Below, piece after piece: positions 1 through 63,704 of a DNA stretch of 64,000 bases; positions within the stretch are counted from its first letter, which is position 1, and every line of letters starts with the position of its first letter. The notes beneath the pieces were generated by a model. The model saw only the letters and a list, made by a program, of their open reading frames with translations. It was not told the DNA's origin and made no database searches. Origin of the DNA: Dendronephthya gigantea (lineage: Eukaryota > Cnidaria > Anthozoa > Malacalcyonacea > Nephtheidae); NCBI RefSeq assembly GCF_004324835.1, contig NW_021163034.1, forward strand, positions 1,330,501-1,394,500, read 5' to 3'. Both the position numbers and the translations under genes were made by a program.

Positions 1-93
1 TCATAACCTTGCTTGGAACAACCCGGAGGCCATCGATACAATAGTTCTCGTCTTACATCTCTCTCCAGATCGTGTTTGCAGCGATTCGTGAAT

Positions 94-1686
94 ATGTTGG
101 AAGAAATTGGGGGAATGATTTTGTCAGTTTTTTCGCTTTTCTTGGACGATGCGCCGAGTTTATCTCGGCATGAACCCCACGACCCCGAACACTCAAGTGA
201 AGGCCGCCGACCGATAGAACATGATAAATGGCTGCCATATATCAACAAAGAATACGATAATGGTAATAATGGCGACGAATTGAACTCTTCATTGCCCGAA
301 TTTACTAGGGGAAGATTGAGAAACTATCGAAGGCTTGGTGATGTCTCTTCTGAGCGTGTGAGTTATCGGGAGTCCATTTGCAAAAGTCTTTGGACAAGTC
401 TAAGCATAACAATCGCCATTGTCCCGCTAACGGCTTTCACAATGACCTTTCTATATTTGGATTTGAAGACAACTGATCTTTGCATAGAATGGCAATATCA
501 CAACCACAGTTTACCGTTGTCTGTAAAACGACTTCGAGTGATTGGCGACAGCGTGGAAGCGATAATAATAAACCTTTGGTTTCCCCTGACAACTGCGATG
601 CTGTTTAGCTGGAAGGTTTTCAAAATGAAGTACTTTTCTACTTTTTATGTTGGTGTTATTTTTGGACTAGCCGTAGTTATCTATTACCAGCTTTTACTGG
701 CTTATGGGATATACGGCGCCCATATTTATTATATCATTCCTGCAAACGCAATATCCTTAACTGGAGTAATAATATCTAGTATTATCATATTACGTAATAT
801 TCGAGCCAGCGAACAGACTGTGTCTTATTCTAACTTTCATATATTGGCTCTTGTATCGTCAGAATTTTTCCTGAGTTCTGTCCTGTCATTTGTTACCAGG
901 TACGGTACCATTCCTTTTTTCAATAGTGTGAAAAACGAACACTACAAGTTTTTGATCGCTGCTATGTTTCCTGGGTTGGCCATCATTCCCGCAGCAATCC
1001 TGAAGCACATTGCGTTAAGGAAAAGTTCCGAGGTAGTACATCCCGGTCGGAGTTTTGTCCTGGCGTACTGTATTCGAGGTGGAGTGATTTACGTATACCG
1101 TGCCATGCAAGCGAACTTTAAAAACATTTGGTTGTTCGTTGGACTCTCGTTGTTTTCTGGCGTTTTAAACTTTTTGAAGAAAGCAACCTATCGCGTAAGA
1201 ATGAGATTGTGGAGTTACATCATCTCACGGCTGAAGGGAACTGTTTGCTGTCAAAGACTTCACATGAAATCTCGTGACACACCACACTACAGAAGGTTAA
1301 GAGCGGATTTAGAAATTCAAGACATGCTTTTTGAGTATATTACACTTGTTCTGAGTCAAGGGATCTTGGTCTTGTTCATTGTAGAAAGTTTTAAACTTTC
1401 TGTTTCGTCCATCGTTTACGAGCCTTTGAGGAACATTGTTATCGGCATTGGAATCGACTTTTTTTTCAATGTTTTATCTAATTTTGTTCAAATCCATTAC
1501 TACAACATTCCAATTAGTCGCGTGTGGGGGAAATACTGGAAACGACATATGTTGGCTAACCTCATCATTCTCATGGTGACAGTGTCATATTTCAGCCGAG
1601 TCCTTCTCTCTGATTTTGAAGCGCGCATCAATGGGACTGGTGCGAGGAACGGGACATACATAATCAGGAATTGCTCATTGTTCTAG
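94..1686 (+). CDS. M1: intact 11-TM array-family protein, 530 aa
   Basis: Unrecognised family; this entry holds the shared description. Numbering follows the 531-residue member M21. Residues 1-18 are hydrophobic or amphipathic (MLEEI...FSLFLNE). Residues 20-100 are acidic and polar with DKWxPYINKEY. Likely membrane segments are near 102-123, 154-173, 184-207, 217-234, 249-269, 285-304, 320-336, 344-362, 412-432, 446-466 and 488-509. The loop at 363-411 is strongly basic and carries TPHYRRLRADLEIQ. Basic residues lie on the even-numbered (cytoplasmic) loops, while NHS in loop 1-2 and the C-terminal sequons lie on the other side, which supports N-in/C-out. I chose the ATG at 94 because MLEE/MLSE begins every member, although the frame is open upstream. 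M1 is group B; its tail carries NGT, NGT and NCS sequons. Only 93 bases of its upstream region are in the window. Function unknown. Confidence 0.82.
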   Translation: MLEEIGGMILSVFSLFLDDAPSLSRHEPHDPEHSSEGRRPIEHDKWLPYINKEYDNGNNGDELNSSLPEFTRGRLRNYRRLGDVSSERVSYRESICKSLWTSLSITIAIVPLTAFTMTFLYLDLKTTDLCIEWQYHNHSLPLSVKRLRVIGDSVEAIIINLWFPLTTAMLFSWKVFKMKYFSTFYVGVIFGLAVVIYYQLLLAYGIYGAHIYYIIPANAISLTGVIISSIIILRNIRASEQTVSYSNFHILALVSSEFFLSSVLSFVTRYGTIPFFNSVKNEHYKFLIAAMFPGLAIIPAAILKHIALRKSSEVVHPGRSFVLAYCIRGGVIYVYRAMQANFKNIWLFVGLSLFSGVLNFLKKATYRVRMRLWSYIISRLKGTVCCQRLHMKSRDTPHYRRLRADLEIQDMLFEYITLVLSQGILVLFIVESFKLSVSSIVYEPLRNIVIGIGIDFFFNVLSNFVQIHYYNIPISRVWGKYWKRHMLANLIILMVTVSYFSRVLLSDFEARINGTGARNGTYIIRNCSLF

Positions 1687-2461: not shown

Positions 2462-4054
2462 ATGTTAGAAGAAATTGTGGGAATGATTTTGTCAGCGTTT
2501 TCGCTTTTCCTGAACGAAGTGCCGCGTTTGTCTCGGCGAGAACAACCTCTTCAGACACACGACTCAAGTGAAAGTCGACTGACAGAGGAAGATAAATGGC
2601 TGCCATATATCAACAAAGAATACGGGGACTGTAATAACGACGGTGAATTGACTTCGCCATTTCCCGAAATAACTGCAGAAAGATTGACAGTTTATCACAG
2701 GCTTGGTGATGTCTCATCCGAGCTTGTGAGTTATCGGGTGTCCATTTGCAAAAGCTTTTGGACAAGTATAAGTGTAACAATCGCTATTGTACCGATAACG
2801 GCGTTCGCAATGGCGCTTTTATATTTTCATTTAAAGACAACTGATCTTTGCATGGAATGGCAATATCTCAACCACAGTTTACCGTTGTCTGTAAAACGAC
2901 TTTGGGTAATTGGCGTGTGTGTGGAAGCAATAATAATTAACCTTTGGTTTCCCCTGACAACTGCGGTGCTGTTCAGCTGGAAGGTTTTCAAAATGAAGTA
3001 CATTTCTACTTTTTATATTTCTGTTATATTTGGATTAACGGTGGTTATCTATTACATGCTTTTACAGCTATTTGGGGTCTTCGGCACGCATTTGTATTAT
3101 AAATATCCTGCAAACGCACTAACCTTAACTGGAGTAATAATTTGTAGTATTGTGGTATTACACAATATTCGAGTCAGCGAGGAGGCCTTATCTTATTCTA
3201 ACTTCCATATATTTGCCATAGTATCGTCAGAATTTCTCCTGTGCTACCTGCTGTCATTTGTTTACAGATACGGCACCATTCCTTTCTTTACAAGTGTAAA
3301 AGAACAACAATATAAATTTCTGGTCGCTGCTATGGCTCCTGCGTTCGCCGTTATTCCTGCAGTAATCCTGAAGCACATTGCGTTGAGGCGAAGTTCCGAG
3401 GTGGTAGACCCCGGTCGGAGTTTTGTCCTGGCGTACTGTATTCGAGGTGGTGTAATATATGTATACCGTGCTATGCAAGCGGACTTCAAAAACATATGGC
3501 TGTTCGTTGGACTTTCATTATTTTCTGGAGCTTTGAACTTTTTGAAGAAAGCAACCTATCGCGTAAGAATGAGATTGTGGAGTTACGTCATCTCACGGTT
3601 AAAGCGAACTGTTTGCTGTCAAAGACTTCACGAAATATCTCGTGACACACCACACTACAGAAGGTTAAGAGCGGATTTAGAAATTCAAGACATGCTTTTT
3701 GAGTACATTACACTAGTTCTAAGCCAAGGCATGTTAGTCTTGTACATTGTGGACAGTTTTAAACTTTCTGTTTCGTCCGTCGTTTACGAGGCTTTGAGGA
3801 ACGTCGCTATTGGCATTGGAATCGACTTCTTTTTCAATGTTTTATCCAATTTTGTTCAAATTCATTACTACAACATTCCAATTAGTCGCGTGTGGTCAAA
3901 GTACTGGAAACGACATGTGTTGGCTAACCTCATCGTTCTCATGGTGATAGTGTCATATTTCAGCCCAGTCCTTTTCCCGGTTTTTCAAGCGTGGGCCAAT
4001 AGGACTGGCGCGAGGAACGGGACGTACATAGTCAAGAATTGCACGCTGCTTTAG
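2462..4054 (+). CDS. M2: intact 11-TM array-family protein, 530 aa
   Basis: Group B member with an undamaged frame. The frame is open 52 codons upstream to 2,306, but that stretch contains the TATA box and 5' UTR, so I take the ATG at 2,462. The acidic head reads SRREQPLQTHDSSES. The block around membrane segments 3-4 has its own version (LFGVFGTHLYYKYPANALTLTG). The tail holds NRT, NGT and NCT sequons, and the last residues are NCTLL. It is a likely integral membrane protein, with topology as for M1. Its 5' half closely resembles that of M15. Confidence 0.82.
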   Translation: MLEEIVGMILSAFSLFLNEVPRLSRREQPLQTHDSSESRLTEEDKWLPYINKEYGDCNNDGELTSPFPEITAERLTVYHRLGDVSSELVSYRVSICKSFWTSISVTIAIVPITAFAMALLYFHLKTTDLCMEWQYLNHSLPLSVKRLWVIGVCVEAIIINLWFPLTTAVLFSWKVFKMKYISTFYISVIFGLTVVIYYMLLQLFGVFGTHLYYKYPANALTLTGVIICSIVVLHNIRVSEEALSYSNFHIFAIVSSEFLLCYLLSFVYRYGTIPFFTSVKEQQYKFLVAAMAPAFAVIPAVILKHIALRRSSEVVDPGRSFVLAYCIRGGVIYVYRAMQADFKNIWLFVGLSLFSGALNFLKKATYRVRMRLWSYVISRLKRTVCCQRLHEISRDTPHYRRLRADLEIQDMLFEYITLVLSQGMLVLYIVDSFKLSVSSVVYEALRNVAIGIGIDFFFNVLSNFVQIHYYNIPISRVWSKYWKRHVLANLIVLMVIVSYFSPVLFPVFQAWANRTGARNGTYIVKNCTLL

Positions 4055-5162: not shown

Positions 5163-5378
5163 ATGATAGAAGAATTTTTTATATTTCACCCCAGTCCTTC
5201 TAACGGTTTTTCATGCGCGCGTCCATGGAACTGCGGCGAGGTATGGTCTATATGGGGTCATACAGGTCATACGAGGTCATACATAGTCAAGAATTGCACG
5301 TTGTTTTATTCGGGCGGTGCTGAAGATATAGCATTTATATTACAATCATTTGCGGAGGCCAGTTGTACAAAGGACTAG
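5163..5378 (+). pseudogene. M3: deletion derivative of an array member
   Basis: The start codon and the first four codons (MIEE) are joined directly to the last coding segment, beginning at the TTTCACCCCAGTCC that precedes the C-terminal tail. Nearly all membrane segments are missing. The joined frame is shifted, then recovers as SYIVKNCTLF, and the usual stop codon is changed so the frame runs into the 3' flank. The promoter and 5' UTR are recognisable. It is a pseudogene of a host gene. Confidence 0.75.
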
Positions 5379-5500
5379 TTTACTTTTAACTGTAGTTAAG
5401 GACGGAATCAGTGGCCAATCAGAATCGTGTATTTCTGAGTTAACTAGGTTGCGAAATGTACTTAAAGAATTTTTTACAACCGCCTCCCGGACGATTTACG

Positions 5501-6533
5501 TCTTATTTTTGGATTAGCGGTGGTTATCTATTACCTGCTTTTACTGGCTTTTGGAGTCTACGACACCGATGTTTATTATATCACTCCTGTAAATGCTATA
5601 TGCTTAATTGGAGTGATAATTTGTAGTATTGTGCTGTTACGCAATATTCGAGCCAGCGAGGAGACCATATCTTATTCTAACATCCATATATTTGCCATAG
5701 TATCGTCAGAATTTCTCCTGTGCTACCTGCTGTCATTTGTTACCTGTTACGGTACCATTCCTTTTTTCAATGGCGTAAAAGAGAAAAAATATAAGTTCAT
5801 GATCGCTGCTATGGCACCTGCGTTGGCCATTATTCCTGCAGTAATCCTGAAGCATATTGCGTTGAGGCGAAGTTCCGAGGTAGTACATCCCGGTCGGAGT
5901 TTTGTTCTGGCGTACTGTATTCGAGGAGGTGTAATTTATGTATACCGTACCATGCAAGCGGACTTCACAAACATTTGGCTGTTCGTTGGACTTTCATTGT
6001 TCTCCGGAGTTTTGAACTTTTTGAAGAAAGCAACCTATCGCGTAAGAATGAGATTGTGGAGTTACATCATCTCACGGTTGAAGCGAACTGTTTGCTGTCA
6101 AAGACTTCACGAAATGCCTCGTGACACACCACACTACAGAAGGTTAAGAGCGGATTTAGAAATTCAAGACATGCTTTTTGAGTACATTACACTAGTTCTA
6201 AGTCAAGGGATGTTGGTCTTGTACATTGTGGACAGTTTTAAACTTTCTGTTTCGTCCATCGTTTATGAGTTTGTAAGGAACATTGCTATTGGCATTGGAA
6301 TCGACTTCTTTTTCAATGTCTTATCCAATTTTGTTCAAATTCATTACTACAACATTCCAATTTGTCGCGTGTGGTCAAAGTACTGGAAACGACATATGTT
6401 GGCTAACCTCATCATTCTCATGGTGTCAGTGTCATATTTCACCCCAGTCCTTCTCACGGTTCTTCAGGCGCGCGTCCAAGGGACTGCCGTGAGGTATGGG
6501 TCATACATAGTCAAGAATTGCACGTTATTTTAG
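5501..6533 (+). pseudogene. M4: 5'-truncated array member, 337+ codons
   Basis: It is open from within membrane segment 3 (LIFGLAVVIYY) to the normal C-terminus (SYIVKNCTLF). There is no ATG, no head and no segments 1-2. The sequence just upstream (about 5,400-5,497) matches the 3' flank found after M4 itself (about 6,610-6,725), so the break joins one member's 3' flank to the middle of another. The remaining frame has no stops, so truncation is probably recent. It is unlikely to make protein. Confidence 0.75.
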
Positions 6534-7228
6534 TCGGGCGGTGCTGAAGATATAGCATTTATATTACGATCATTTGCGGAAGCCAGTTGTACAAAGGACT
6601 AGTTTACTATTAACTGTAATCAAGGATGGAATCAGTGGCCAATCAGAGTCGTGTATTTCTAAGTTAACTAGGATTTAACTAGGATGCGAAATGTAGTTAA
6701 AGAATTTTATACAACCCCTGGACGATAGAATACAATAAAGGATTAATACTAATAAACCAATCACAAAATTTTTAAAACGTGGGAGAGCGGGCAGCCATGA
6801 CACAGATATAATAAATATCTCAATGCAACCCTACAATTATCTTAATGCTATTTCACAAGCACAGTTCACCACAACGTCAAAAACCATTTTAAGACGCTTG
6901 TGGACTCTGCCACTAGCTTAATAAATCTTTTTTATATATATAATCAAAGCCAAACCATCATTCAACCCCTCTTTGGTAAAATGCTATAAACAAAATATGT
7001 TAAACATTGTTCTGGTGTTTTTTAGTTCCCTTTAAGCATAATTAGTTCCGTCTTCTTGCTTGTAATTAATAAATTCCTTTGCTACAAGCTAGCTCGGAAA
7101 ACCCGTTCTATTCGGGAAAACCCGTTCTGTTCGGGAAAACCCGTTCTGTTCGGGAAAACCCGTTCTGTTCAGGAAACGGAAACATTAATTCTCGAGTCAC
7201 ATCTTCCCCCAAACAGCGATCTGTCAAA
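6534..7228. other. Spacer M4-M5
   Basis: This is the 3' flank of M4, partly a repeat of 5,379-5,497, followed by the 5' flank of M5. An AATAAA at 6,734-6,739 could serve as a polyadenylation signal. The 19-base minisatellite at 7,094-7,168 is described separately. Confidence 0.45.
7094..7168. repeat. Minisatellite, 19-bp unit, about 4 copies
   Basis: The unit TCGGGAAAACCCGTTCTGT repeats with one slightly changed first copy. It begins right after GCTACAAGCTAGC, where M3 has its TATA-like box. It is perfectly tandem with no spacers, so it is not a CRISPR array. Confidence 0.9.
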
Positions 7229-7568
7229 ATATTAGAAGAAATCGTGGGAATAGTTTTGTCCGGGTGTTTGCGCTTTTCTTTAACGACACGTTGCGTTTGT
7301 CTTTCCGAGAACAACCTCATCAGACAGGCAACTCAAGTGAAAGCTGTCTCATAGTCGAAGATAAAGCCCCGTATATCAACAAAGAGTACGGGAACTTCAA
7401 TAATGACGGCGAACGCTATACTGGAAGCGACATGCGCTAACCTCATCATTATTATGGAGACAATGTCATATTTTAGCCCAGTCCTTTTTCCAGTTTTTCG
7501 AGTGGCAGCTCATTAGGACTGGCACGAGAAACGGGACGTACACAGTCAAGAATCGCACGTTATTTTAG
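7229..7568 (+). pseudogene. M5: deletion derivative of an array member
   Basis: The start codon has become ATA. About 60 codons of head sequence (LEEIVGIVLS, then a frameshift, then recognisable PYINKEYGNFNN-coding DNA) are fused near 7,413 to the last coding segment (TGGAAGCGACATGCGCTAACC onward). The middle, with segments 1-10, is absent. It ends at the family stop codon and keeps the usual 3' flank. Confidence 0.72.
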
Positions 7569-8506: not shown

Positions 8507-8903
8507 ATGTTGGAAGAAATTGTGGGAATGATTCTGTCAGTGTTTTCGCTTTTCATGAACGAAGCGCCGCGTTTGTCTTTGCGACAACAACTTCATGAGG
8601 CAGACGACTCTAGTGAAAGCCGACCGATGGAGGAAGATAAATGGCTGCCATATATCAATAAAGAATACGAGAACAATAATAGCGACGATGAATTGATTTC
8701 GCCATTGCCCGAATTCAGTAGACAAAGATTGGCAGACTATAGCAGGATTGGTGATGTGTCACCGGTTCAAATTGTGAGTTATCGGAAGTCTATTTGCAAG
8801 AGTTTTTGGACAAGTCTAAATATAACAATCGCTATTATACCCCTAACGGCATTTATGATGGCGTTGATATATTTGGATTTCAAGACAAATGATCTTTGCA
8901 TAG

Positions 8904-8908
8904 AATGG
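8904..8908. repeat. Target-site duplication, left copy (AATGG)
   Basis: AATGG precedes the TG of the 5' LTR and is repeated at 13,423-13,427 after the CA of the 3' LTR. Confidence 0.93.
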
Positions 8909-9136
8909 TGTAGTGTCGTAGCAAATAACGATCCCTCAGTAACAAAATAGAACTAAATATGCGCATAATTAGGTACTCATGCGTACGAACAGAGACATAT
9001 AAAAGGACAAATAATATATATATAAAAAGAAACGGAATACGGAGTCTTCGAGTAAACATTAATATTTTCGTTAGAAGTGTAATATATATCTAGAAACATA
9101 GGTGAATAAATATCGATACTAACACGATATCCTACA
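8909..9136 (+). repeat. 5' LTR, 228 bp
   Basis: It begins TGTAGTGTCG and ends TATCCTACA, with a TATAAAA at 8,998-9,004 as probable promoter. It matches the 3' LTR base for base as far as I can read. Confidence 0.95.
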
Positions 9137-9137
9137 T

Positions 9138-9153
9138 TGGCGACGAGGATAAC
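9138..9153 (+). other. Primer-binding site of the retrotransposon
   Basis: TGGCGACGAGGAT begins one base after the 5' LTR, the usual place for a tRNA primer site and with the usual TGG start. I do not assign the tRNA. Confidence 0.6.
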
Positions 9154-9201
9154 TAGACAAACACCCAAAGCTATAATCATAAAAGTTATACACGTGTTAA
9201 C

Positions 9202-10450
9202 ATGGCTAATAGCATGTCTATAAACTTTCCGCCGTTTGACCCAGACGTAGATCAAACGACAGTCGGCAACAGATTTACCAAATACGTTGATCGATTTAAG
9301 AACTATATAATCGCAATGGATATTAAAGACAAAGCCAGAAAAAGAGCCCTATTTCTACACACCGCGGGATTCAAGGTGCAAGACATTTTTGAAACGCTAG
9401 AGGAAACAGGAGACGATTTCGAAACGGCGGCTTCGAAGCTTGCAGAATATTTTCAACCCAAAAGGAACAATCTTTACAACATATACCAACTCAGACAAAT
9501 CCAACAAGAACAAGACGAAACCAGCGATGATTATTGCACAAGATTAAAGCAAGCAGCGAGATTATGTGAATTCCCAGAGGGCTGGCAAGACACCGAAATA
9601 CAATTGCAGATCATAGATAAAGGAAAATCGAAAAGACTACGACGACAATTGCTGAGTAAAGAACATACGCTACAAGAAGCGCTTGAGTTCGCAAGAGCAC
9701 AAGAGATAGCAGATAGCCAAGCATCGACGATCGAGAAAGGACTTAAGTATGAAAAATTACGAGTCGAAGAAATACATGAAACAAGAATAACACCAGAAAA
9801 AACCGAATCATCAAAGAAATGCTTCTTTTGTGGGGGAAAATTCCCGCATCAAGGTGGAAGGACCAAATGCCCAGCCTGGGGTAAAGAATGTAAAATATGT
9901 AACAAATCCAACCACTTCGCAAAATGTTGTAAAAGTTCAAACAGACTAAAGGCGGTAGGAAAGATCGAGAAGGAAGATAATGACAGCGTATCAGACAGTA
10001 GTGACGATATATCGGTTTACAATGTCGGGGCAGTAAGCGCTGGGGCAGTAGAACCTGAGCGTAGACCAGTTCGAACGATAAAGATAGACAACAGTAAGAT
10101 AGATGTCCTGGTAGATACGGGAGCCACGGCAAACATCATAGACGAGGAAGCGTTTAGGAAATTATACCCAAAAGGACAGACATTAAGAAAAGTAAAGAGC
10201 ATCATGCAACCATACCACACAGAGGAAAATCCAACTCCACCATTACGTATTATTGGCAAATTCGACGCGATGATTGAATCCGAGACAAGATTGGTGTCAG
10301 CAACATTTTACGTGGTAAAGGGGAAGACAAAAACAGAGCCATTGCTTAGCTACCAAACTGCCCAAGAACTGAACATGATTAAGGTTGTAACGGCAGTAAA
10401 GGAGCAACCCTCAAGAGTGGAGGAATTATTGACGACTTATAACGATAGAT
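9202..10450 (+). mobile_element. Retrotransposon gag and protease region
   Basis: A gag-like helical domain begins near 9,202. A cysteine-rich region with a CCHC zinc knuckle (CKICNKSNHFAKCC) lies near 9,820-9,950. The aspartic protease signature VLVDTGATANII is near 10,100-10,140. Described only as part of the fossil element. Confidence 0.85.
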
Positions 10451-10479
10451 TCGAAGGTATTGGGAAAATGAAAGGAGTA

Positions 10480-11750
10480 AAAGTCGACCTCAATATCGAC
10501 ACAGAAGTTAAACCAGTCGCACAACCACTTCGGCGGATACCGTTTAGTATACGTCCGAAGATAGAAGAAGAGTTGAAAAGGCTGGAGGAGAAAGATATCA
10601 TAGAGAAAATAGATAAACCTACTAGTTGGGTGTCCCCCACAGTAATCACCCCCAAGAAGAATCCAAACGAAATACGTCTCAACGTCGATATGAGAGTAGC
10701 TAATAGTGCCATCCCCGAGTGAACAGCATTACGCCAACGATCGAAGAAGTGATACATGAATTAAATGGAGCGGAAGTCTTTTCCCACCTAGATATGAACC
10801 ATGGATACCACCAGTTGGAGCTTGAAGAAAACAGCCGTGATATAACAACCTTCACGACACATACCGGATTCTACAGGTATAAGAGACTCAACTATGGGAC
10901 GAAATCAGCTGGTGACATATTTCAAAACAAAATACGGGAAGAACTGACCCAGCACATACCAGGCGTTATTAATATCAGCGACGATATACTGGTATCGGGG
11001 AGAAATCAACAGGAGCACGACGAAAGACTAGAACTACTTCTTGAAACAGCGAAAGATAAACAGGTTACTTTCAATAAATCGAAGTGCGAATTTAGCAAAG
11101 ACAAGTGTTTATATTTCGGGTTAGTATTCTCGAAGGACGGAGTAAGCCCAGACCCGGGCAAAGTTCAGGCAATCAAAACAACATCTCCACCACGGAATGC
11201 CAAGGAACTTAATTCATTTTTATGCACAGTGCAGTATAACGCTAGATTTATGAAAAGATTTGCACCTTCGACTGAAAAATTGAGGAGCCTTTTGAAAGAC
11301 GAACATTTTAAATGGGAAACTGAACACCAGAGAGCATTCGAAAACCTAAAAAAAGATTGTGTGACGAGACCAGCCTAGTGTACTTCGATCCCAAGGCGGA
11401 ACACGAAGTTCACGTAGATGGGTGTCCTCTGGGGATATCAGCAACACTGGTGCAAAGAAGTGACAAAGAGGGACCGTGGCGAGTAGTACAATACGCAAGC
11501 CGCTCGTTGACAGATACAGAAAGCAGGTACTCACAGATTGAGCTGGAAACCCTGGCTGTAGATTTCGCATGTAAGAAATTTCACCTGTATTTATACGGAA
11601 TACCTTTTACAATAATCACGGACCACAAACCATTAGAAGCAATCATAAATAATCCAAGACATCAAACCTCAATACGGCTACAGAGAATCTTGGTAAGGAT
11701 TGTGGACTACGATTTCAAGGTAGAATACAGGCCGGGAAAACAACATATCC
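10480..11750 (+). mobile_element. Retrotransposon reverse transcriptase and RNase H region
   Basis: Recognisable reverse transcriptase blocks include HLDMNHGYHQLEL and the SDDI catalytic box. They are followed by an RNase H domain with HVDGCPLGISATL and TDHKPLE. The region is part of the broken coding section. Confidence 0.85.
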
Positions 11751-11949
11751 GATTATACTTCAAGGCACCCGCTACCGCGTAAGGAGTGTACCAAGCAAGA
11801 GCTAAGTACAAGTAAGGAAGTAAAACAATATGTGAACTATATTCTCCAAAATGACGTGCCTATCTCGATTAGTATAGAGGAAATGAAGCAAGCTGTGAAA
11901 GAAGACCCAGCAATGAGAAAACTGTCGCAATGCATAAAAAGAGGACAAA

Positions 11950-13160
11950 TGGTGAATACAGAGGATATCAGTGGATATAAAAACGTATTCCAGGAACTGG
12001 CATTGGTGGACGACCTGATCATGCGAGGTGAAAGAATGGTAGTCCCAGACAAGTTGCAGAAACGAATGATACAGATTGCCCACGAAGGACATCAAGGAGT
12101 AGTACGAACTAAACAAATGCTCCGTGCACACGTCTGGTTCCCGGGAATAGATGCAGCAGTGAAAAACTACACGGACAAGTGTTTGGGATGTCAAGCAACT
12201 ACGCCATTGAATAACAGAGAGCCACTACAAATGACAGAACTACCAGATGGACCATGGGAAAAAGTCAGCATGGACTTCGCGGGACCCTTACCAAACAAAG
12301 ATACGATATTGGTAATGTGGGATCAATATGCCAAATACCCAGTAGTCGAATTCGTCACCACAACATCGGCAGAAACAACAATACGTGTGCTGGAACGTAT
12401 CTTCACTACATATGGTACTCCAAAAGAGATAAAGACAGATAATGGACCACCATTCAACTCGGGAAAATTTTCAGAATTTGCAAAAACGCTGGGTTTTAAA
12501 CACCGGAAAGTTACTCCAAAATGGGCCGAGGCAAATGGTGATGTCGAAAGAATGATTCAAATCATAAAAAAAAGTGCGAAGATAGCGAAAATAGAAGGAA
12601 AGAACATCCGACAGGAAATTCAAAAAACAATCAGAAGCTATCGAGACACGCCACATGGAAACACCGGAGAAACCCCCAACAAGTTGATCTTTGGGAGGGA
12701 ACTGAATGGTCGTCTACCACCTCGAATGAAGAAGAAGACAGTATCTGATGCAACCATCCGACAAAGAGACGCAACTGCTAAACAAAAGTGCAAGGCCTAT
12801 GCAGACAGCAGGAGACATACCAAAGCGATACACATCGAAGTGGGAGACAAAATACTTGTGGAGCAGGACAAAATTGACAGTCTAACCCCTCGTTATAATC
12901 CGGAACCGTTTGTGGTGATCGCAAGGAAAGGCTCGATGATAACAGCTCAGAAAGGAGAGACTATACTATGCAGAAATACAGCGAAGTGTAAACGTTTGAA
13001 ATGCGCTGAGGATGAAGAAAGCGACAATGAATGGCAACCATCATTAAGTAGGCAGATGCAACCTGATAGAGAAGAGAGAGAGCCGACGAGACAGAGGAGC
13101 CCACGACCAATGAGGAATAGAATATCGACAAAGCAAACAATATACAAGGATTTTCATACA
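11950..13160 (+). mobile_element. Retrotransposon integrase region
   Basis: The zinc-binding HHCC part (GHQGVVRTKQML...CLGCQ) is followed by a core with DFAGPLP, DNGPPFNS and an EANGDVER segment, as in Ty3/gypsy integrases. A basic C-terminal tail follows. Confidence 0.85.
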
Positions 13161-13182
13161 TAATAGACGGAAAATATATATA

Positions 13183-13194
13183 AGAGGGGAGGGA
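13183..13194 (+). other. Polypurine tract of the retrotransposon
   Basis: AGAGGGGAGGGA abuts the 3' LTR, the usual site of plus-strand priming. Confidence 0.8.
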
Positions 13195-13422: not shown

Positions 13423-13427
13423 AATGG
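13423..13427. repeat. Target-site duplication, right copy (AATGG)
   Basis: It duplicates 8,904-8,908. The coding frame of M6 resumes at 13,428. Confidence 0.93.
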
Positions 13428-32415: not shown

Positions 32416-32430
32416 TGATTGTTGTAATAC

Positions 32431-45343: not shown

Positions 45344-45436
45344 GCTCTCGCCACATTGTAACAAGGGTAAGAGCACATTGAAAACTTCATTTGTATTGTA
45401 TCATACTGCCAGAACTGAAAATGAGACTATTATGAG

Positions 45437-49588: not shown

Positions 49589-51178
49589 ATGTTGGAAGAA
49601 TTGGTAGGAATGATTCTATCCGTGTTTTCGCTTTTCATGAACGAAAGGCCGCGTGTATCATTCCGAGAACAACCCTGTGATGCAGGCGACTCAAGTGAAT
49701 GCCGCCGTCTGCTAGAGGAAGATAAATGGCTGCCATATATCAACAGAGAATACGAGAACTTCAATAATGACAACGAATTGACCTCTTCATTGCCCGAATT
49801 TACTAGGGGAAGATTGACAAACTATCGCACGTTTGGTGACGTCTCATCTGAGCTCGTGAGTTATCGGAAGTCCATTTGCAAGAGCATTTGGACAAGTCTA
49901 AGTGTAACTATCGCTGTTTTACCGATAACGGCTTTCGCGATGGCGCTTTTATATATGCATTTAAAGACATACGATCTTTGCCGAGAATGGGAATATCAAA
50001 ACCACAGCTTACCGTTGTCTGTAGTACGACTTCGACTGATTGGCAATGGCGTGGAAGCGATAATAGTAAACCTTTGGTTTCCCCTGACTACTGCGGTGCT
50101 GTTCGGCTGGAAAGATTTTAAAATGAAGTACTTTTCTACAGTTTCTGTAGGTGTTATTTTTGGATTTTCGGTAGTTATCTATTACCTGCTTTTACTGGCA
50201 TTTAGGGTCTACGACACACACAAATACTATATCTATCCTGCAAATGTATTTACATTTACTGGAATGATAGTTTGTGGTATAGTGTTAATGCGCAATATTC
50301 GAGCCTGCGAGCACGCCGTATCTTATTCTAATTTTCATATAATGGTGCTGGTGTCATCGGAATTTCTTGTGTGTGCTCTGCTGTCATACGTCTATAGATT
50401 TGGCATAATTCCTTTCTTTATAAGTGTAAAAGAACAACAATATAAGTTCCTGGTCGCTGCTATGGCTCCTGCGTTCGCCGTTATTCCTGCAGTAATCCTG
50501 AAGCACATTGCGTTGAGGCGAAGTTCCGAGGTAATATATCCTGGTCGGAGTTTTGTCCTGGCGTACTGTATTCGAGGTGGTGTAATTTACTTATACCGTG
50601 CCATGCAAGCGAATTTCACAAACATTTGGCTGTTCGTTGGACTTTCATTGTTTTCCGGAGTTTCGAACTTTTTGAAGAAAGCAACGTATCGCGTAAGAAT
50701 GAGATTGTGGAGTTACATCATCTCACGGTTGAAGGGAACTGTCTGCTGTCAAAGACTTCACGAAATGCCTCGTGACACACCACACTACAGAAGATTAAGA
50801 GCGGATTTAGAAATTCAAGACATGCTTTTTGAGTACATTTCACTTGTTCTAAGTCAATGGACCTTGGTCTTGTTCATTGTAGAGAGTTTTACAATTTTGT
50901 CCGTGATTTACGAGAGTTTGAGGAACATTGCTATTGGGATTGGAATCGACTTTTTTTTCAATGTTTTATCCAATTTTGTTCAAATCCATTACTACAACAT
51001 TCCAATTAGTCGTTTGTGGTCTAAATACTGGAAACGACATATGTTGGCTAACCTCATCGTTGTCATGGTGATGGTGTCATACTTTAGCTCAGTCCTCCTC
51101 ACGGTTTTTCATGCGCGCGTCAATGGAACTGGCGCGAGGAACAAAATGTACACAGTCAGAAACTGTACATTGTTTTAG
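49589..51178 (+). CDS. M27: intact 11-TM array-family protein, 529 aa (mosaic)
   Basis: Group E, start MLEELVGMILSVFSLFMNE. The head is the most divergent in the plus-strand set: REQPCDAGDSSECRRLLEEDKW, then KTYDLCREWEYQNHSLPLSVVRL in loop 1-2 (in pieces: YDLCREW, NHS sequon, SVVRL). Segments 3-5 match pseudogene M23 (RACEHAVSYSNFHIMVLVSS), pointing to a conversion tract. The end matches M24 and M26 (SFTILSVIYES, NKMYTVRNCTLF). Confidence 0.83.
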   Translation: MLEELVGMILSVFSLFMNERPRVSFREQPCDAGDSSECRRLLEEDKWLPYINREYENFNNDNELTSSLPEFTRGRLTNYRTFGDVSSELVSYRKSICKSIWTSLSVTIAVLPITAFAMALLYMHLKTYDLCREWEYQNHSLPLSVVRLRLIGNGVEAIIVNLWFPLTTAVLFGWKDFKMKYFSTVSVGVIFGFSVVIYYLLLLAFRVYDTHKYYIYPANVFTFTGMIVCGIVLMRNIRACEHAVSYSNFHIMVLVSSEFLVCALLSYVYRFGIIPFFISVKEQQYKFLVAAMAPAFAVIPAVILKHIALRRSSEVIYPGRSFVLAYCIRGGVIYLYRAMQANFTNIWLFVGLSLFSGVSNFLKKATYRVRMRLWSYIISRLKGTVCCQRLHEMPRDTPHYRRLRADLEIQDMLFEYISLVLSQWTLVLFIVESFTILSVIYESLRNIAIGIGIDFFFNVLSNFVQIHYYNIPISRLWSKYWKRHMLANLIVVMVMVSYFSSVLLTVFHARVNGTGARNKMYTVRNCTLF

Positions 51179-52555: not shown

Positions 52556-54154
52556 ATGTTAGAAGAAATTATAGGGATGATTTTGACAGTGTTTTCACTT
52601 TTCACGAACGAAACGCCGCGGGTGACTTTCCGAGAACAACCTCGTCAGACGGGCGACGACTCAAGTGAAAGCCGATCGACGATCAAAGATAAATGGCCGC
52701 CATATATCGACAAAGAATACGAGAACTTCAATAATGATGACGAATTGACTTCGCCATTGCCCGAATCAACCAGAGAAAGATCAACAGACTATCGAAGGCT
52801 TGGTGATGTCTCATCTGAGCTTGTGAGTTATCGGGAGTCCATTTGCAAGAGCCTTTGGACAAGTCTAAGCGTAACAATCGCCATTGTACCCATAACAGCT
52901 TTTATGATGGCGTTTCTATATTTGGACTCAAAGACAACTAATCTTTGCATAGAATGGCAATATCACAACCACAGTTTACCCTTGTCTGTAAAACGACTTC
53001 GAGTGATTGGCGACAGCGTGGAAGCAATAATAATAAACCTTTGGTTTCCCCTGACAGCTGCGGTTCTGTTCAGCTGGAAAGTTTTTAAAATGAAGTACTT
53101 TTCTACCTTTTATGTTGGTCTTATTTTTGGATTAGCAGCAGTTATTTATTACCTATTGTTACTGGCATTTGGAGCCTATGGTACACATGTATATTATAGA
53201 TATCCTTTAAATGTTCTTTTCTTTACTGGAATAATCACTGGCAGTATTATCGTATTACGCAATATAAGAGCTAGCGAGCAGACTGTGTCTTATTCTAACT
53301 TTCATATATTGGCTCTTGTATCGTCAGAATTACTCGTGTGTTCTGTACTGTCATTTATTTACAGATACGGCACAATACCTTTCTTTATAAGTGTGAAAAA
53401 AGAGCAATATAAGTTCATGATCGCTGCTATGGCTCCTGCGTTGGCCATCATTCCTGCAGTAATCCTGAAGCATATTGCGTCCAGGAAAAGTTCCGAGATA
53501 ATACATCCCGGTCGGAGTTTTGTCCTGGTATTCTTCATTCGAGGTGGCGTGATTTACGTATACCGTACCATGCAAGCGAACTTTAAAAACATTTGGCTGT
53601 TCGTTGGACTTTCATTATTTTCCGGCGTTTTGAACTTTTTGAAGAAAGCAACCTATCGCTTAAGAATGAGATTGTGGAGTTACATCATCTCACGGTTGAA
53701 GCGAACTGTTTGCTGTCAAAAACTTCACGAAATGCCTCGTGACACACCACACTACAGAAGGTTAAGAGCGGATTTAGAAATCCAAGACATGCTTTTCGAG
53801 TACATTTCACTAGTTCTGAGTCAAGGGATCTTGGTTTTGTACATTGTAGAAAGTTTTAGACTTTCTGTTTCTTCCATCATTTACGAGACTTTGAGGAACA
53901 TCGCTATTGGCATTGGAATCGACTTCTTTTTCAATGTCTTATCCAATTTTGTTCAAATTCATTACTACAACATTCCAATCAGTCGTGTGTGGTCAAAGTA
54001 CTGGAAACGACATATGTTGGCTAACCTTATCGTTGTCATGGTGATGGTGTCTTACTTTAGCTCAGTCCTCCTCACGGTTTTTCGAGCGCGCGTCAATAGG
54101 ATTGGCGCGAGTAACAAAATGTACACCGTCAGAAACTGTACGTTGTTTTGGTGA
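52556..54154 (+). CDS. M28: intact 11-TM array-family protein, 532 aa
   Basis: Group E, start MLEEIIGMILTVFSLFTNE. Head REQPRQTGDDSSESRSTIKDKWPPYIDKEY. Segments 3-4 are of the AYGTHVYYRYPLNVLFFTG type of groups C and M15, while the tail is of the NKMYTVRNCTLF type. The usual TAG is TGG here, so the protein has one extra W before TGA. Segment 7 is VFFIRGGVIYVYR, without the usual Cys. Confidence 0.83.
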   Translation: MLEEIIGMILTVFSLFTNETPRVTFREQPRQTGDDSSESRSTIKDKWPPYIDKEYENFNNDDELTSPLPESTRERSTDYRRLGDVSSELVSYRESICKSLWTSLSVTIAIVPITAFMMAFLYLDSKTTNLCIEWQYHNHSLPLSVKRLRVIGDSVEAIIINLWFPLTAAVLFSWKVFKMKYFSTFYVGLIFGLAAVIYYLLLLAFGAYGTHVYYRYPLNVLFFTGIITGSIIVLRNIRASEQTVSYSNFHILALVSSELLVCSVLSFIYRYGTIPFFISVKKEQYKFMIAAMAPALAIIPAVILKHIASRKSSEIIHPGRSFVLVFFIRGGVIYVYRTMQANFKNIWLFVGLSLFSGVLNFLKKATYRLRMRLWSYIISRLKRTVCCQKLHEMPRDTPHYRRLRADLEIQDMLFEYISLVLSQGILVLYIVESFRLSVSSIIYETLRNIAIGIGIDFFFNVLSNFVQIHYYNIPISRVWSKYWKRHMLANLIVVMVMVSYFSSVLLTVFRARVNRIGASNKMYTVRNCTLFW

Positions 54155-55441: not shown

Positions 55442-57029
55442 ATGCTGGAAGAAATTATAGGGATGATTTTGTCAGTGTTTTCACTTTTCACAAGCGAAAC
55501 GCCGCGTGTGTCTTTCCGAGAACAGCCTCGTCAAACAAACGGAGACGACAGTGAAAGCCGTCCGGTAGTCGAAGATAAATGGCTGCCATATATTAACAAA
55601 GAATACGAGAACTTCAATAATGTCGACGTATTGACTTCCTCCTTGCCTGAATTAACTAGAGAAAGATCAACAGACTATCGAAGGTTTGGTGATGTCTCAT
55701 CTGAGCTTGTGAGTTATCGGAAGTCCATTTGCAAAAGCCTTTGGACAAGTCTAAGTATAACCATCGCTATTATGCCCATGACAGCTTTCATGCTGGCGTT
55801 TTTATATCTGGATTTGAAGACAACTGATCTTTGCATGGAATGGGAATATCACAACCACAGTTTACCGTTGTCTGTAAAACGACTTCGAGTGCTTGGCGAC
55901 AGTGTGGAAGCAATAATAATAAACCTTTGGTTTCCCCTGACAACCGCTGTGCTGTTCAGCTGGAACGTTTTTAAAATGAAGTACTTTTCTACTTTTTATA
56001 TCTCTGTTATTTTTGGATTAACGACAGTTATCTATTACATAATTTTACTGCTTTTGGGGGTCTACGGCAGGCATATGTATTATAGATACCCTGTAAATGT
56101 ACTTGATTTCACTGGAGTAATCATTTGTAGTATTGTGGTATTACGCAATATTCGCTCTGGTGAGCAGACCACATCTTATTCTAATTTCCATATATTGTCT
56201 TTGGTATCGTCAGAATTTCTCCTGGGTTCTCTACTGGCATACGTTTACAGATACGGCATAGTTCCTTTCTTCAATGGTGTAAAAGAAGAACAATATAAAT
56301 TTACGATCGCTGCTATGGCGCCTGTGTCGGTCATCATTCCTGCAGTAATTCTGAAGCACATCGCGTTGAGGCGGAGTTCCGAGGTAGTACATCCTGGTCG
56401 GAGTTTTGTGCTGGTGTACTTTATCCGAGGTGGAGTAATTTACTTATACCGTACCATGCAAGCGGACTTCACAAACATTTGGCTGTTCGTTGGACTTTCA
56501 TTATTTTCCGGCGTTTTTAACTTTTTGAAGAAAGCAACCTATCGCGTAAGAATGAGATTGTGGAGTTACATCATCTCACGGTTGAAGCGAACTGTTTGCT
56601 GTCAAAGACTTCACGAAATGCCTCGTGACACACCACACTACAGAAGGTTAAGAGCGGATTTAGAAATTCAAAACATGCTTTTTGAGTACATTACACTAGT
56701 TCTAAGTCAAGGGATCTTGGTCTTGTACATTGTAGAAAGTTTTAAACTTTCTGTTTCGTCCATCATTTACGAGACTTTGAGGAACGTCGCTATTGGCATT
56801 GGAATCGACTTCTTTTTCAATGTCTTATCTAATTTTGTTCAATTATACACATAACGTGGTGTGGTCGAAGCACTGGAAACGACATATGTTGGCTAACGTC
56901 ATCATTGTCATGGTGATGGGTTCGTACTTTAGTTCAGTCCTCCTCACAGTTTTTCAAACGCGTGTGAAGGGGGTTGGTGCTGTTAATGGAACATACGTAG
57001 TCAGAAACTGCACCTTGTCTATATTGTGA
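55442..57029 (+). pseudogene. M29: array member with a small deletion and frameshift
   Basis: Group E, start MLEEIIGMILSVFSLFTSE. The frame is whole for 467 codons to NVLSNFVQ. There GTTCAATTATACACATAACGTG replaces the longer normal text, a net loss of about 14 bases that brings in a stop. The tail (KHWKRHMLANVIIVMVMGSYF ... NGTYVVRNCT) follows in another frame and ends with an altered SIL. It is the last plus-strand member. Segments 3-4 match M26. Confidence 0.83.
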
Positions 57030-58942: not shown

Positions 58943-60544
58943 CTAACATGGAGATCTGTACGGTTTTACTTTGTATTGACCGCTTTTTAACTTCTCAAAA
59001 GCCATATCGAAAACGTATGCAAGTTTCCCGACACTCTGAACGCGGAAAACGTGTTTGATCGCCGGAGAGGAGGCTACATGAGCCATTTCCTTTATCGCAT
59101 CTGTATCAAGGTCGCTTACGGCCACAACAGAGATTTGAACACCCATTTTCTTCAGCTCCTGAGCCTTTGGTACTGTCATCGATTTATTTACATTCGATTG
59201 TCCATCCGTTATGAGAAGGACCTTCAATTTTGAAAAGCGTCGGCTTCCTATGTTGAAAAGACATTCAAGTAGCTGCATACGCATCTTATAATGCACTATT
59301 GCCAACTATAGATGTCTTGGGTGTATCTTACAGGGCTGTACATGCACTGCTGTTGATTTCCATTTTTTGGACTTCGAATTTGTTCGTTGGAAAACTTGAG
59401 AATCCGGTAAGATGACTGCAAATTAACTCAGTGCAGTTAAAAAACTGCTAATTCAGTTGAATTAATGTTGTTGCATTGATATCAAGATGATTTATGATGG
59501 ATGCCTTTTCAATGGATACTTGTGAATGTACATTTGAACCAATGGTAAAAGTACTAGTCAGGTAACAAGTAAAAAATATGTTTCAACAGTTCATATTCGT
59601 GATGTAATAATTACTGTTATGGTCAGTAGCGTAGCCAGCCTGTCGATTTGTCCCGCTATGCTAATATTTTCGTGTTCACGGACTGTGAAAACAATAGATT
59701 TCTAAAGACATGAATAATTATAATAACTCGAAATTTACATAGCGGGACAAAATCGTCGGGCTAGCTACGCCACTGGTTATGGTTCATCCCCAAACAAAGG
59801 CTTAATTAACTTAGGTTGTATAGGTTAATTTTTGAATGTAGATCTTAAATTTCGAGGGCTATATATAGTAACGCTTTAATAGATTATATCGTACAGTACC
59901 TTTCAAAAGCAGGTCCTTAGCAAAAGCCAACCCTGCTTGTGTGTTTGTGCTGCCACCGGGATACGGGATTGAACCAATTCGCTGACTTGCTTGCGCAGAA
60001 GAAAGGAAAGAGAAGTCGACTTTTGCAAGCGAAGAAAAAGTGACCGCAGCGTGTCGACAGCTGTATATCTTACCACCTCTGGGGGTCTCGCACATCTCTA
60101 TCGCTTGTGTGAACGCCTTCAAGCCCTGACGAAATTCACATTCAGGAACTGACCCAGAACCGTCCAGCACAAAAACGATATCTTCCAGAACCACGGACCT
60201 TCTATTGCGATTTCCGGCCACCGGATAAAAATCAAAGAAATTTTCCAGCACCGTCTCTGCAGTCTTTTGTGGAGGTGGAATTATTTGCAGTTCTAAAAAC
60301 ATAAAAGAAGTGAACTGAGGGTGAAGTGAACTGCCATGAGCTGAAGGTTTGATAGTATAGCATCGAAGAAGTGAATAAAACATTGCACTAAACGGTATTT
60401 ACTTTGGTAAATCGGAGCATTGGAATCCGATGGCAATGTCGTTGTTGGTGCTGGAGTAGTCTCGGCGAATCTCCAAAAGGTTTGTTCACTGTTCTTTGGC
60501 AAAACACAGAACAACAAAAGCGATAATACAACAACCGATTTCAT
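58943..60544 (-). CDS. Secreted von Willebrand factor A domain protein, 3 exons, 279 aa
   Basis: Exons by my splice model: 60,544-60,403, 60,292-59,900 and 59,247-58,943, with GT-AG introns of 110 and 652 bases and phases that fit exactly. Residues 1-20 are a signal peptide (MKSVVVLSLLLFCVLP). Residues 28-41 are a Thr/Pro linker. RNRR at 76-79 is a furin-like site. The vWA domain begins near 85: DGSGS at 91-95 and TDG at 192-194 are the metal-ion (MIDAS) residues, with GSTNTQAG between them. It probably binds a protein or matrix ligand outside the cell. The hAT MITE at 59,624-59,775 sits in intron 2. Start and end exons rest on the sequence alone. Unrelated to the array. Confidence 0.78.
59624..59775. 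mobile_element. hAT-type MITE, 152 bp, copy 3
   Basis: Same ends as copies 1 and 2 (CAGTAGCGTAGCC...GCTACGCCACTG), but with its own target duplication GTTATGGT (59,616-59,623 and 59,776-59,783), so it is an independent insertion, in intron 2 of the vWA gene. Confidence 0.88.
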
Positions 60545-62141
60545 AGCTTCTTCTTCTGGGAGAGTTTGGTTTCGCGCTTCTCAGCAGTTGATGGACGGAA
60601 ATGAAAAATGTTCAACCGTATTTGACCGTTTTATTCGCTGCGTGGTCGTTGATTGATGAGGTTTTTGCGAAAACACAGGAAGTCCTAATGCATGTGTCAA
60701 TTTTGTGCCCTTGTTTGTTTTTCTTTTTTACTCCGAGGTGAAAAGAAGCGAAAGTTGTCAGTTTCAAAGCAAAGCAAAGCCAAGCCAAGGGGCATTCCGA
60801 ACACAGATAAAAAATCAGATATCCCTTGAACCAGTTGAGTCGTGCGTGCATGTCTATAGCGTAATGGCGCGTGATCTCCACAATGTCAGTGTGTTTGGCG
60901 TTAAACTAGTAAAACTGAAATCATGAAACGGCAGACGTCTTTCCAGTGTCAATGTTTAAAACCGGGTCGTCGAAAATCTAAACATAGGCAAACTCGGTAT
61001 ATGCATTTAACGTGCTTATTGACCGGCCTTGCTCACACCTTCTGATTGACTGGCGTAAAAAGATAAACTTCTTAGCGTAAAATGCAGCAAAACGCACCAA
61101 TTTACATCTTTTCGTGGCGAACAATTTTTAAAAACAGGCGGCTAACAGTTGATGAAGAAATTGAGCAACCATGCAACCATAAGCAACTATCGGACCCGGA
61201 CGTTGAGAATGAAGCATTTCAGAAAATTTACTCACTCTAACACCAGTATTTGTCCACTTGGGAACTTACCAACTGCTTGTGCACCTGACAGTGGAAAGCT
61301 ATTTAGGACCACTTATTACTGGTGTCCCTCGCAGCAAGCGAGACTGAAAGGTAGAGGAAGGTAGCGTCCACCCTCTTTCAGTTCAGCCTCTTCGAGCACG
61401 CAAGGGCAGTCGAGACCCACACACTTCGGTCATTGAAGGTGTGTGAGTTTTTTTTGTTTATAAGATCAAACTTCAAAGGTATTCAACAAGTATCTTTTTA
61501 TAAACAAGAGAGAAGTGCTCTCAAAAATGCTGTTTCAAGTGCGTTCCAGTCGCACAGACCAGATATAATTACAAATGTGTGTTGTGTTATTATAATTTCA
61601 TGCTATAATGTAGGACTTTAAATCTACCGGTGACCACAGACAGTGTTTGTTTGAATTTAGTTTCTTCTGTCATGCAGAGCTGTTAGACCTGAGGAATGCA
61701 CTCATACATTCTCGTCGATGAGAGACGGAGATCGTGAGGTGCTTGTTCTTAATCGATGGTTAAACCATTTGAAGTGGAACCTCAGTTGAGTAAGAGACTA
61801 TGCTCAAAAAAATGGCAGCTCCGAGATATCGTTCCAGTTAACATATAGAGTCCACCCTAGTCGTAGTAATTCAAAGTCCAGAATCCACGTATATAATCCT
61901 GGCTTTAATCCCTAACCTCACCCCAACCCTTAAGAAACTATTAACCCTAACGAATAAAATAACTGATTAAATATTAATATTTGTCCCTTCTGGACATAGA
62001 ATTACTATTACCAGCCCAACCCTGACCATTGGTAATTGGTATACTAATCCTAAATCGGTTTGTCTTAATCCAGATTCACATTCAGCATGCTCTTCCAGCT
62101 TTTTGCCTTAATGAACTATATCATAATGCGTTATCGTTAAT
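60545..62141. other. Intergenic region between the vWA gene and M30
   Basis: It should hold the promoter and 5' UTR of the minus-strand vWA gene near 60,545-60,800 and the 3' end of M30 near 62,100. Short open frames on both strands lack any recognisable feature. Irregular CCCTAA-like text near 61,910-61,950 is not a telomeric array. Confidence 0.4.
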
Positions 62142-63704
62142 CTAACGCCAGTTTTCAAACGGCAAGGAGCAGTTTCTTATTGGGTACGCCTGAGAATCGT
62201 GCATTCGAACTTGAAACACCGTCAGCAAAACGCTAGTGAAGTAACAGACAACCACGACAAGGATCACAGCATTCGCTACGATGTGTCTACGCCAGCATCG
62301 CCACCAAACGCGCGGAATTGGAATGTTATACCAGTGAATGTGTATAAAAATCGACAAAAAGTTAAAAAAGAATTCAATGGACAATCCGATTGCGAGCCTC
62401 ACGAGGGATTCACGTAACACGCTCCAATCTGAGAGTTCAAAACTTATGATCATATACAAGGCCAGGTACGCTTGACTGATTATCAAAGTGTTGTTCTCGA
62501 ATAGCATATTTTGTATTTCGGTGTCGGCCTTCAATCGTCTTGAATGAGGTGTGTTCACGGGCAGTTGTCGCAGCGATGCACAACAGGTTCTTCTCAACAA
62601 CTTAAAAACTTGAGCCCAAACGCGATTTCGAATGTTCATCGTTGCTGTTCGAAGCACGCTCGATGCGCCAGAGAATAAGGACAGACCGATAAACAGCCAA
62701 ATGCTCTTGAAGTCCGCTTGCATGATGCGATACAAGGTGATGCTTGCCCCGCGCATGAAATACAAAAGTACGAAACTTCGTTGAGGTTCGATTATCTCCG
62801 AGGAACGCCACAAGGCCATGTGCCTGCATACAGCGGTTGGGAGCAACGTCAGCAATGGTATCATGGTGGCCACGATGAACTTATAGATTTCGTTGTTCAG
62901 GGAGTTGAACCAAGGAACCGCAGCATATCTATAGTACATTGCAATCACAAAGGAAGCTAAGAATTCCGTGGAAATGACTGACATTATCTGAACGTCGGAA
63001 TAGGTGACCGTTGGATGGGCTTCTCTGACTTTCCGGACAACAAGATGACATCCTACTATCAGATTGGCTGCAAACAGTACATTACCAGGCACACGATACA
63101 CAACGTCCGTATCGTAAGCACCGAACAACAGTAGAAACGTCAAATACATCGTGGCAATCACACCAAATAGAAGACCCACAAATACAGTTAGAACATAACG
63201 CTTCTTGAACTCAGGCCACCCGAACAAGACCACCAAACTTGCTGGAAGCCAAAAATTTAGCAAGATCCCCTGAATGCAGTCACCGATCAATTTGAACCTC
63301 ATGACGGCAAACGGTATGGTATTGTTGTGAGTTTTCCACTCGAAACACAAATCGCAAGTTCTCATGTCAAAATACAGGAAAGCAATCCCGATCGCGGAGA
63401 GAATGAGGACGGATGAGGTGATGCTGAGATTTGTCTTAAGACTTCTCACGAGAGACTGACGGATCGTGGGCTTGACTTGCACTGATTTATCTTCCTCGGT
63501 CAGTTGTACGTATCCAGATTTGGCGTGGATAAATGAGACGCTCTCCTCATTAAATGTACCATATTCGCTGTGTGTTTCGTTTTGCCATAGCGCTGTCTCG
63601 CAGGAGTCGGGATGGTTGTTCGCTTTATCCCGGAACAGTTGCGGCGTGTCCAAGGTGAACGCAGAAAATATCGAAAGAAAACCGGCAAGAATTTCTTCTA
63701 ACAT
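62142..63704 (-). CDS. M30: divergent, intact 11-TM family protein, 520 aa
   Basis: Minus strand, single exon. The ATG at 63,704 gives MLEEILAGFLSIFSAFTLDT, matching the family start; a TTG three codons upstream is not used. The head is unlike the array (DKANNHPDSCETALWQNE). The core is conserved: RRLKADTEIQNMLFE, MQADFKSIWLFIGLSLFSGA, FFFNFLSIFIHIHWYNIPI, RVWWRCWRRH and RNCSLP. Membrane segments fall in the same places. The tail keeps only the NCS sequon and adds FENWR. Its far greater divergence and opposite strand suggest an old paralogue outside the conversion zone. Sites shared with the array are the best guide to functional residues. Confidence 0.83.
   Translation of the reverse strand: MLEEILAGFLSIFSAFTLDTPQLFRDKANNHPDSCETALWQNETHSEYGTFNEESVSFIHAKSGYVQLTEEDKSVQVKPTIRQSLVRSLKTNLSITSSVLILSAIGIAFLYFDMRTCDLCFEWKTHNNTIPFAVMRFKLIGDCIQGILLNFWLPASLVVLFGWPEFKKRYVLTVFVGLLFGVIATMYLTFLLLFGAYDTDVVYRVPGNVLFAANLIVGCHLVVRKVREAHPTVTYSDVQIMSVISTEFLASFVIAMYYRYAAVPWFNSLNNEIYKFIVATMIPLLTLLPTAVCRHMALWRSSEIIEPQRSFVLLYFMRGASITLYRIMQADFKSIWLFIGLSLFSGASSVLRTATMNIRNRVWAQVFKLLRRTCCASLRQLPVNTPHSRRLKADTEIQNMLFENNTLIISQAYLALYMIISFELSDWSVLRESLVRLAIGLSIEFFFNFLSIFIHIHWYNIPIPRVWWRCWRRHIVANAVILVVVVCYFTSVLLTVFQVRMHDSQAYPIRNCSLPFENWR

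Follow-up and report, generated by a model that had tools for sequence, protein, structure and literature searches.

The 64,000-nucleotide stretch analysed here, referred to as the window, carries a single gene family at 24 loci, which we delimited with open reading frames (ORFs) and tblastn; 13 of these loci are intact and 11 have decayed. Six-frame reading revealed that the intact members are single-exon ORFs of 520-532 aa, counted from the family start codon, of which 12 lie on the plus strand and one, a divergent member, on the minus strand. That 13 homologous ORFs of such length remain uninterrupted is far beyond chance. The family members, together with the LTR retroelement inside one of them, are as follows, with the evidence in brackets.

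94-1686, plus: intact member, 530 aa (ORF, tblastn)
2462-4054, plus: intact member, 530 aa; the open frame reaches an upstream ATG at 2306 (ORF)
5182-6530, plus: decayed member; TM3 to the end open (5502-6530), 5' part lost or scrambled (tblastn)
7199-7566, plus: decayed fragment; N-terminal piece fused to C-terminal piece, frames broken (tblastn)
8507-14624, plus: member split by the LTR element; 5' part 8507-8908, 3' part 13423-14624 (tblastn)
8909-13422, strand not assigned: Ty3-type LTR retroelement inside the preceding member (LTRs, target duplication, domains)
16354-17946, plus: intact member, 530 aa (ORF)
19445-21043, plus: intact member, 532 aa (ORF)
22560-22772, plus: decayed C-terminal fragment (tblastn)
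22963-24558, plus: intact member, 531 aa (ORF)
25473-25739, plus: decayed C-terminal fragment (tblastn)
26211-26444, plus: decayed fragments, a TM5-TM6 piece and a C-terminal piece (tblastn)
27030-28628, plus: intact member, 532 aa (ORF)
30817-32415, plus: intact member, 532 aa (ORF)
33592-34962, plus: decayed member; lacks residues 26-181 and has unrelated sequence around the TM8-TM9 loop (tblastn)
35885-37480, plus: intact member, 531 aa; residues are numbered after this copy (ORF)
38513-38715, plus: decayed N-terminal fragment (tblastn)
39150-40742, plus: near-intact member; single in-frame stop at codon 467 (ORF, tblastn)
42927-44516, plus: intact member, 529 aa (ORF)
44879-45340, plus: decayed C-terminal fragment; matches the 3' end of the 39150 copy at 97% identity, 393/405 nt (tblastn)
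46571-48160, plus: intact member, 529 aa (ORF)
49589-51178, plus: intact member, 529 aa (ORF)
52556-54154, plus: intact member, 532 aa (ORF)
55442-57020, plus: decayed member; reading frame lost around codon 470 (ORF, tblastn)
62142-63704, minus: intact divergent member, 520 aa (ORF, tblastn)

The other full-length plus-strand copies share 74-84% identity with the 35885 member over almost their entire length. The minus-strand copy is 41-46% identical to the full-length plus-strand members (45% to the 35885 member). An earlier note on this DNA had described a tandem, single-exon family of polytopic membrane proteins undergoing birth and decay, with 12 intact frames on the plus strand and one on the minus strand, and our reading of the window upholds this description and reproduces these counts. 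Its figure of about 30 members agrees with the 29-30 pieces returned when all members were searched against the window by tblastn, but these pieces resolve into 24 separate loci, 11 of them decayed loci beyond the intact set. The same note treated positions 1-63704 as array; the span does hold the 24 loci, but also the LTR element and a VWA-domain gene. As for its proposal of a larger array past the left edge, the 5' flank is indeed cut, given that the array's first gene begins at position 94, but we found no evidence of a copy beyond.

The plus-strand array runs out near 57 kb, and the minus-strand copy sits past the VWA-domain gene. This gene (58946-60580, minus strand) comprises at least two exons over separate open stretches, and an exon that begins near 60544 may encode a signal peptide. 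The split structure of the gene, like the presence of the Ty3-type element, is in keeping with an animal genome. Several repeats were also observed. A 169-bp dispersed repeat, with about 89% identity, occurs at 40833-41001, 45426-45594 and 59613-59781, and hence also outside the array, while a 19-bp tandem repeat (GGAAAACCCGTTCTGTTCG) is present in four copies at 7096-7176. The 3' flanks of three units have repeats in common, in both orientations (palindromic or inverted; 25062-25471, 29186-29623 and 32426-32813), which possibly represent a small mobile element. A conserved short block about 20 nt 5' of the ATG contains an AG in 11 of 14 plus-strand copies (absent from 49589, 52556 and 55442), which makes it a candidate acceptor site for an intron in the 5' UTR. 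The tRNA and Rfam scans of the window found nothing.

The modes of decay are ordinary: truncation, internal deletion (33592-34962), an in-frame stop (39150), a broken frame (55442) and LTR insertion. The inserted element has two identical LTRs of 228 bp (8909-9136 and 13195-13422), is bordered by a 5-bp target duplication, AATGG, and contains RVP protease and H2C2/rve integrase domains. By these features it appears to be an ordinary and young Ty3-type element, and its insertion accounts for one split copy.

The duplicated flanks provide insights into how the copies were made. The flanks of the 42927 and 46571 members are homologous over about 800 bp on the upstream side and 436 bp on the downstream side, and the 22963 and 27030 members share about 900 bp of homologous sequence downstream, indicating DNA-level copying and unequal crossing-over. 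Retroposition as the copying mechanism is ruled out by this homology, which extends far past the gene on both sides. Moreover, the copies have exchanged segments. Over 267 two-state informative sites, the conflict between neighbouring sites was 0.345, as compared to a mean of 0.448 and a minimum of 0.424 in 300 shuffles of site order; conflicts between nearby sites are thus fewer than in the shuffled data, which reveals recombination or gene conversion among the paralogues. The closest paralogue switches along the gene. The 42927 and 46571 members are 91-97% identical in five of six blocks of 240 nt, while in the third block (residues ~160-240, from TM2 to TM4) both are nearest to the 2462 member, at 87-88%. 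In a tree of the copies, five of ten inner branches are poorly supported, and with genes that are mosaics a single tree is only a rough guide to the copies.

Our analyses of substitution rates revealed that the proteins are maintained. Among the intact plus-strand copies, the median dN/dS (NG86) is 0.36, with a range of 0.27-0.56, and all 66 pairs fall below 1, indicating purifying selection on the encoded proteins; the minus-strand copy was left out since its silent-site distances are saturated. Along the protein, the regional medians are 0.47 (residues 1-95), 0.37 (96-183), 0.41 (184-305), 0.33 (306-400), 0.16 (401-490) and 0.36 (491-531). No region with a mean dN/dS above 1 was found among those compared in the intact plus-strand copies, and the rates thus give no sign of diversifying selection. 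The silent-site distance itself is low at residues 306-400 (dS 0.22, against 0.45 for 184-305 and 0.61 for 491-531; an example is the stretch 36800-37084), probably as a result of stronger homogenisation by gene conversion. These rates bear on the idea that the array is a decaying or silent amplification with no present function. Decay of 11 of the 24 copies, one of them split by a recent LTR insertion, would be expected of such an amplification, but the constraint seen in every intact plus-strand pair, with dN/dS well below 1 and as low as 0.16 in the C-terminal core, renders this explanation highly improbable.

Averaged hydropathy and the helices of structural models delineate 11 membrane segments, so that the 11-TM architecture of the earlier note is supported as a prediction from hydropathy and charge. 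TM7 (~317-337) is the weak segment, being the least hydrophobic helix and carrying the invariant arginines R320, R329 and R337. The basic loops, TM2-TM3, TM8-TM9 and TM10-TM11, all lie on one side, which is cytosolic if the N-terminus is inside; the TM8-TM9 loop has on average 11.3 K+R against 3.7 D+E, and the TM10-TM11 loop 4.0 against 0. All 13 intact members, the minus-strand copy among them, carry a C-terminal N-glycosylation sequon (N527), and a sequon in the first outer loop (N138) occurs in every intact member but 35885, the minus-strand copy again included. Taken together, the hydropathy, the positive-inside charge and the two conserved sequons lead to a predicted topology in which the chain starts in the cytosol, crosses the membrane through 11 TM helices and ends outside. 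In this topology, the invariant C131 (loop 1) and C528 (C-tail) are both outside, and a C131-C528 disulfide is possible. The outer loops are short, with 7-29 residues, and an extracellular domain is absent. Several conserved polar residues, R329, E415, Q423, E444, D/E456 and N460, are buried in the predicted helices.

Mapping the variation onto this topology revealed a difference between the two faces of the membrane. The outer halves of the TM helices have a mean entropy of 0.61 and the inner halves 0.40, a difference found in 9 of the 11 helices, with p = 0.0008 in a permutation test that takes sites as independent. The loops follow the same pattern (outer 0.60 versus cytosolic 0.28), as does dN/dS (0.40 for outer versus 0.25 for inner residues; dS 0.38 versus 0.30). 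The TM8-TM10 region and its cytosolic loops barely vary; TM8, TM10 and the TM10-TM11 loop in particular show next to no variation. The asymmetry fits a shared inside-facing function combined with copy-specific outward contacts, and is equally compatible with a receptor, a channel or a carrier. Relaxed constraint on the outer face accounts for it without positive selection.

Mosaic genes and a more variable outer face could also be expected of surface proteins engaged in recognition of self and non-self, microbes or symbionts, or of targets in an arms race, in which gene conversion would shuffle the exposed half; in corals, most tandem families encode transmembrane receptors or proteins of adhesion and signalling (PMC10236652). 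The short outer loops, with no extracellular domain, would however leave little surface for contact with macromolecules, and mean dN/dS stays below 1 in every region compared. We therefore consider this explanation quite unlikely.

The family, which the earlier note had not recognised, also went unnamed in our searches of Pfam, NCBIfam and PDB sequences. In Pfam, the 13 members, their consensus and its two halves matched no family above cut-off; in NCBIfam, nothing exceeded the curated cut-off; and neither profile detected a relative among PDB sequences. Protein-pattern and tblastn searches of viral contigs, GTDB genomes, phages and plasmids likewise found no relatives. Since animal genomes are not part of these collections, the negative result speaks only against carriage of the family by the phages, plasmids and prokaryotes represented there. 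Relatives labelled as uncharacterised proteins may well exist in animal genomes, as would be expected, and although we found no description of such a family in open-access literature text, being new to the libraries searched (Pfam, NCBIfam, PDB and the viral, phage, plasmid and prokaryote collections) is not the same as being new to science. Two candidates were rejected as chance matches: a 32-aa phage minor coat protein (best PHROG E 0.0009, also in PDB), which involved short stretches and did not recur with the minus-strand copy, and the calcium-channel gamma-8 subunit (PDB, E 0.0035), a short stretch repeated neither with the profile nor with the minus-strand copy.

Two AlphaFold models, built from alignments of the window's own sequences only (13 and 21 rows), have low confidence (pLDDT 44 and 51; pTM 0.33 and 0.28), and both contain about 11 membrane-length helices. 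Foldseek searches with these low-confidence models gave no match under E 0.1, and the rows from Foldseek and VIA were a mix of unrelated helical proteins within the tool's stated chance level. Neither a 7TMIC nor an XKR structure was among the matches listed for the models, which excludes nothing.

These searches also bear on the view that the array encodes lineage-specific transporters of solutes or lipids, amplified for uptake, excretion or detoxification, with a core that moves the substrate and a variable outer half that sets specificity. A polytopic architecture, a length of about 530 aa, charged or polar residues conserved within the predicted helices (R329, E415, E444, D/E456 and N460), a big basic cytosolic loop and an array under purifying selection are what such a family would present. 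Pfam and NCBIfam, however, returned matches at chance level only (ABC_perm1, E 0.45; Cation_ATPase_C, with a consensus fragment, E 0.03, below cut-off), with no solute carrier or ABC permease above the curated cut-offs of either library, and an hhalign profile comparison detected no internal repeat between the halves, the one higher score being due to six columns common to both segments. The internal symmetry of transporters is often visible in structures only. We regard a transporter family as quite possible, if doubtful. A membrane enzyme or lipid scramblase of unknown fold, for example of the acyltransferase or scramblase type, could likewise have eleven helices and invariant polar residues, among which are H469 and H486 here. 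Against this, XKR, TMEM16 and MBOAT have no Pfam match here, and the conserved histidine lies just 45 residues from the C-terminus, a position unlike that of the histidine in MBOAT enzymes; such a function seems very unlikely to us.

The array constitutes a tandem and apparently lineage-restricted family of single-exon polytopic membrane proteins of about 530 aa, whose outside C-tail would be glycosylated. Its best reading, which we put forward tentatively and short of calling it probable, may be a repertoire of ligand-recognising membrane proteins, either receptors or ligand-gated channels; we favour it in first place, with a transporter family close behind. In such a repertoire, copies would arise by DNA-level duplication, swap segments by gene conversion and decay, steps that have left their traces in the sequence. 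TM8-TM10 and the two basic loops on the cytosolic side, TM8-TM9 and TM10-TM11, would form a common working core performing the same inside-facing job in all paralogues, while the outer loops, together with the outward ends of the helices in the N-terminal part, may bind different extracellular small ligands in each paralogue. The likeliest use would be ligand sensing, a putative role in which diversity is kept by birth, death and conversion. The earlier note had pointed to chemoreceptor or other recognition families, and the variability of the outer face and the exchange of segments speak in favour of this idea, in which recognition, chemoreception included, is a putative function. Against the sensing reading, the Pfam and PDB sequence searches yielded no receptor or channel signature. 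Transporters, immune surface proteins or detoxification families could also show such an array, its decay and the divergence of the outer face, and either a transporter or a channel could make use of the buried conserved polar residues. A more specific version of the sensing reading, an undescribed class of eleven-helix receptors or ligand-gated channels, N-in and C-out and unrelated to GPCRs or 7TMICs, whose outward helices are diversified by duplication and conversion around a fixed signalling core, is unlikely in our estimation. The evidence as it stands would also fit an ordinary lineage-specific expansion.

Large tandem families of single-exon membrane proteins are the usual animal route to the diversification of sensing, transport and immunity, and they can usually be named. 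Here, no family is found in the libraries searched, yet constraint, an inner/outer asymmetry and gene conversion are all present. If the members are receptors, they would form a further class besides the GPCRs and 7TMICs; as transporters, they would represent a carrier family with no present assignment.

Among known systems, solute carriers, XKR, TMEM16 and MBOAT proteins (10-12 helices) resemble the family in helix number, XKR, TMEM16 and MBOAT having 10-11, and in their buried conserved polar residues. They differ in that our family has no Pfam, NCBIfam or PDB sequence match, internal repeat or recognised catalytic or transport motif. The tandem rhodopsin-like GPCRs of marine invertebrates, cnidarians among them, are similarly lineage-specific, membrane-spanning and often intronless. 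GPCRs have seven helices and an outside N-terminus, whereas the present family has 11 predicted helices, an N-terminus predicted inside and no Pfam 7tm match; weak 7TM-like structure rows obtained for TM1-TM7 (Z of 8.2 at most, with an rmsd of 7.0 across 178 residues) were within the tool's chance range. With the 7TMICs, which include insect gustatory and odorant receptors and GRLs, the family has in common a cytosolic N-terminus and an outside C-terminus (here as predicted), N-terminal helices that vary more than the C-terminal part, a C-terminal part with cytosolic loops longer than the outer ones, and tandem arrays with pseudogenes. The difference lies in the helices, seven there and 11 predicted here from hydropathy and charge, in agreement with the low-confidence models. 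The 7TMIC Pfam models matched none of the 13 members nor the consensus at E up to 10; identity within that superfamily can fall to 8%, and its fold is defined by an anchor domain and a split TM7 (PMC9998090). Tandem clusters with many pseudogenes and birth-and-death evolution are typical of chemoreceptor families (PMC11526382). Tandem duplications are also pervasive in stony-coral genomes, where the amplified families are mostly genes for transmembrane receptors, adhesion and signalling, vary between genera and are thought to serve immunity or symbiosis (PMC10236652), and in Acropora they recur via non-allelic recombination (PMC12314368). In an anthozoan host, the present array would fall into this described pattern of tandem duplication.
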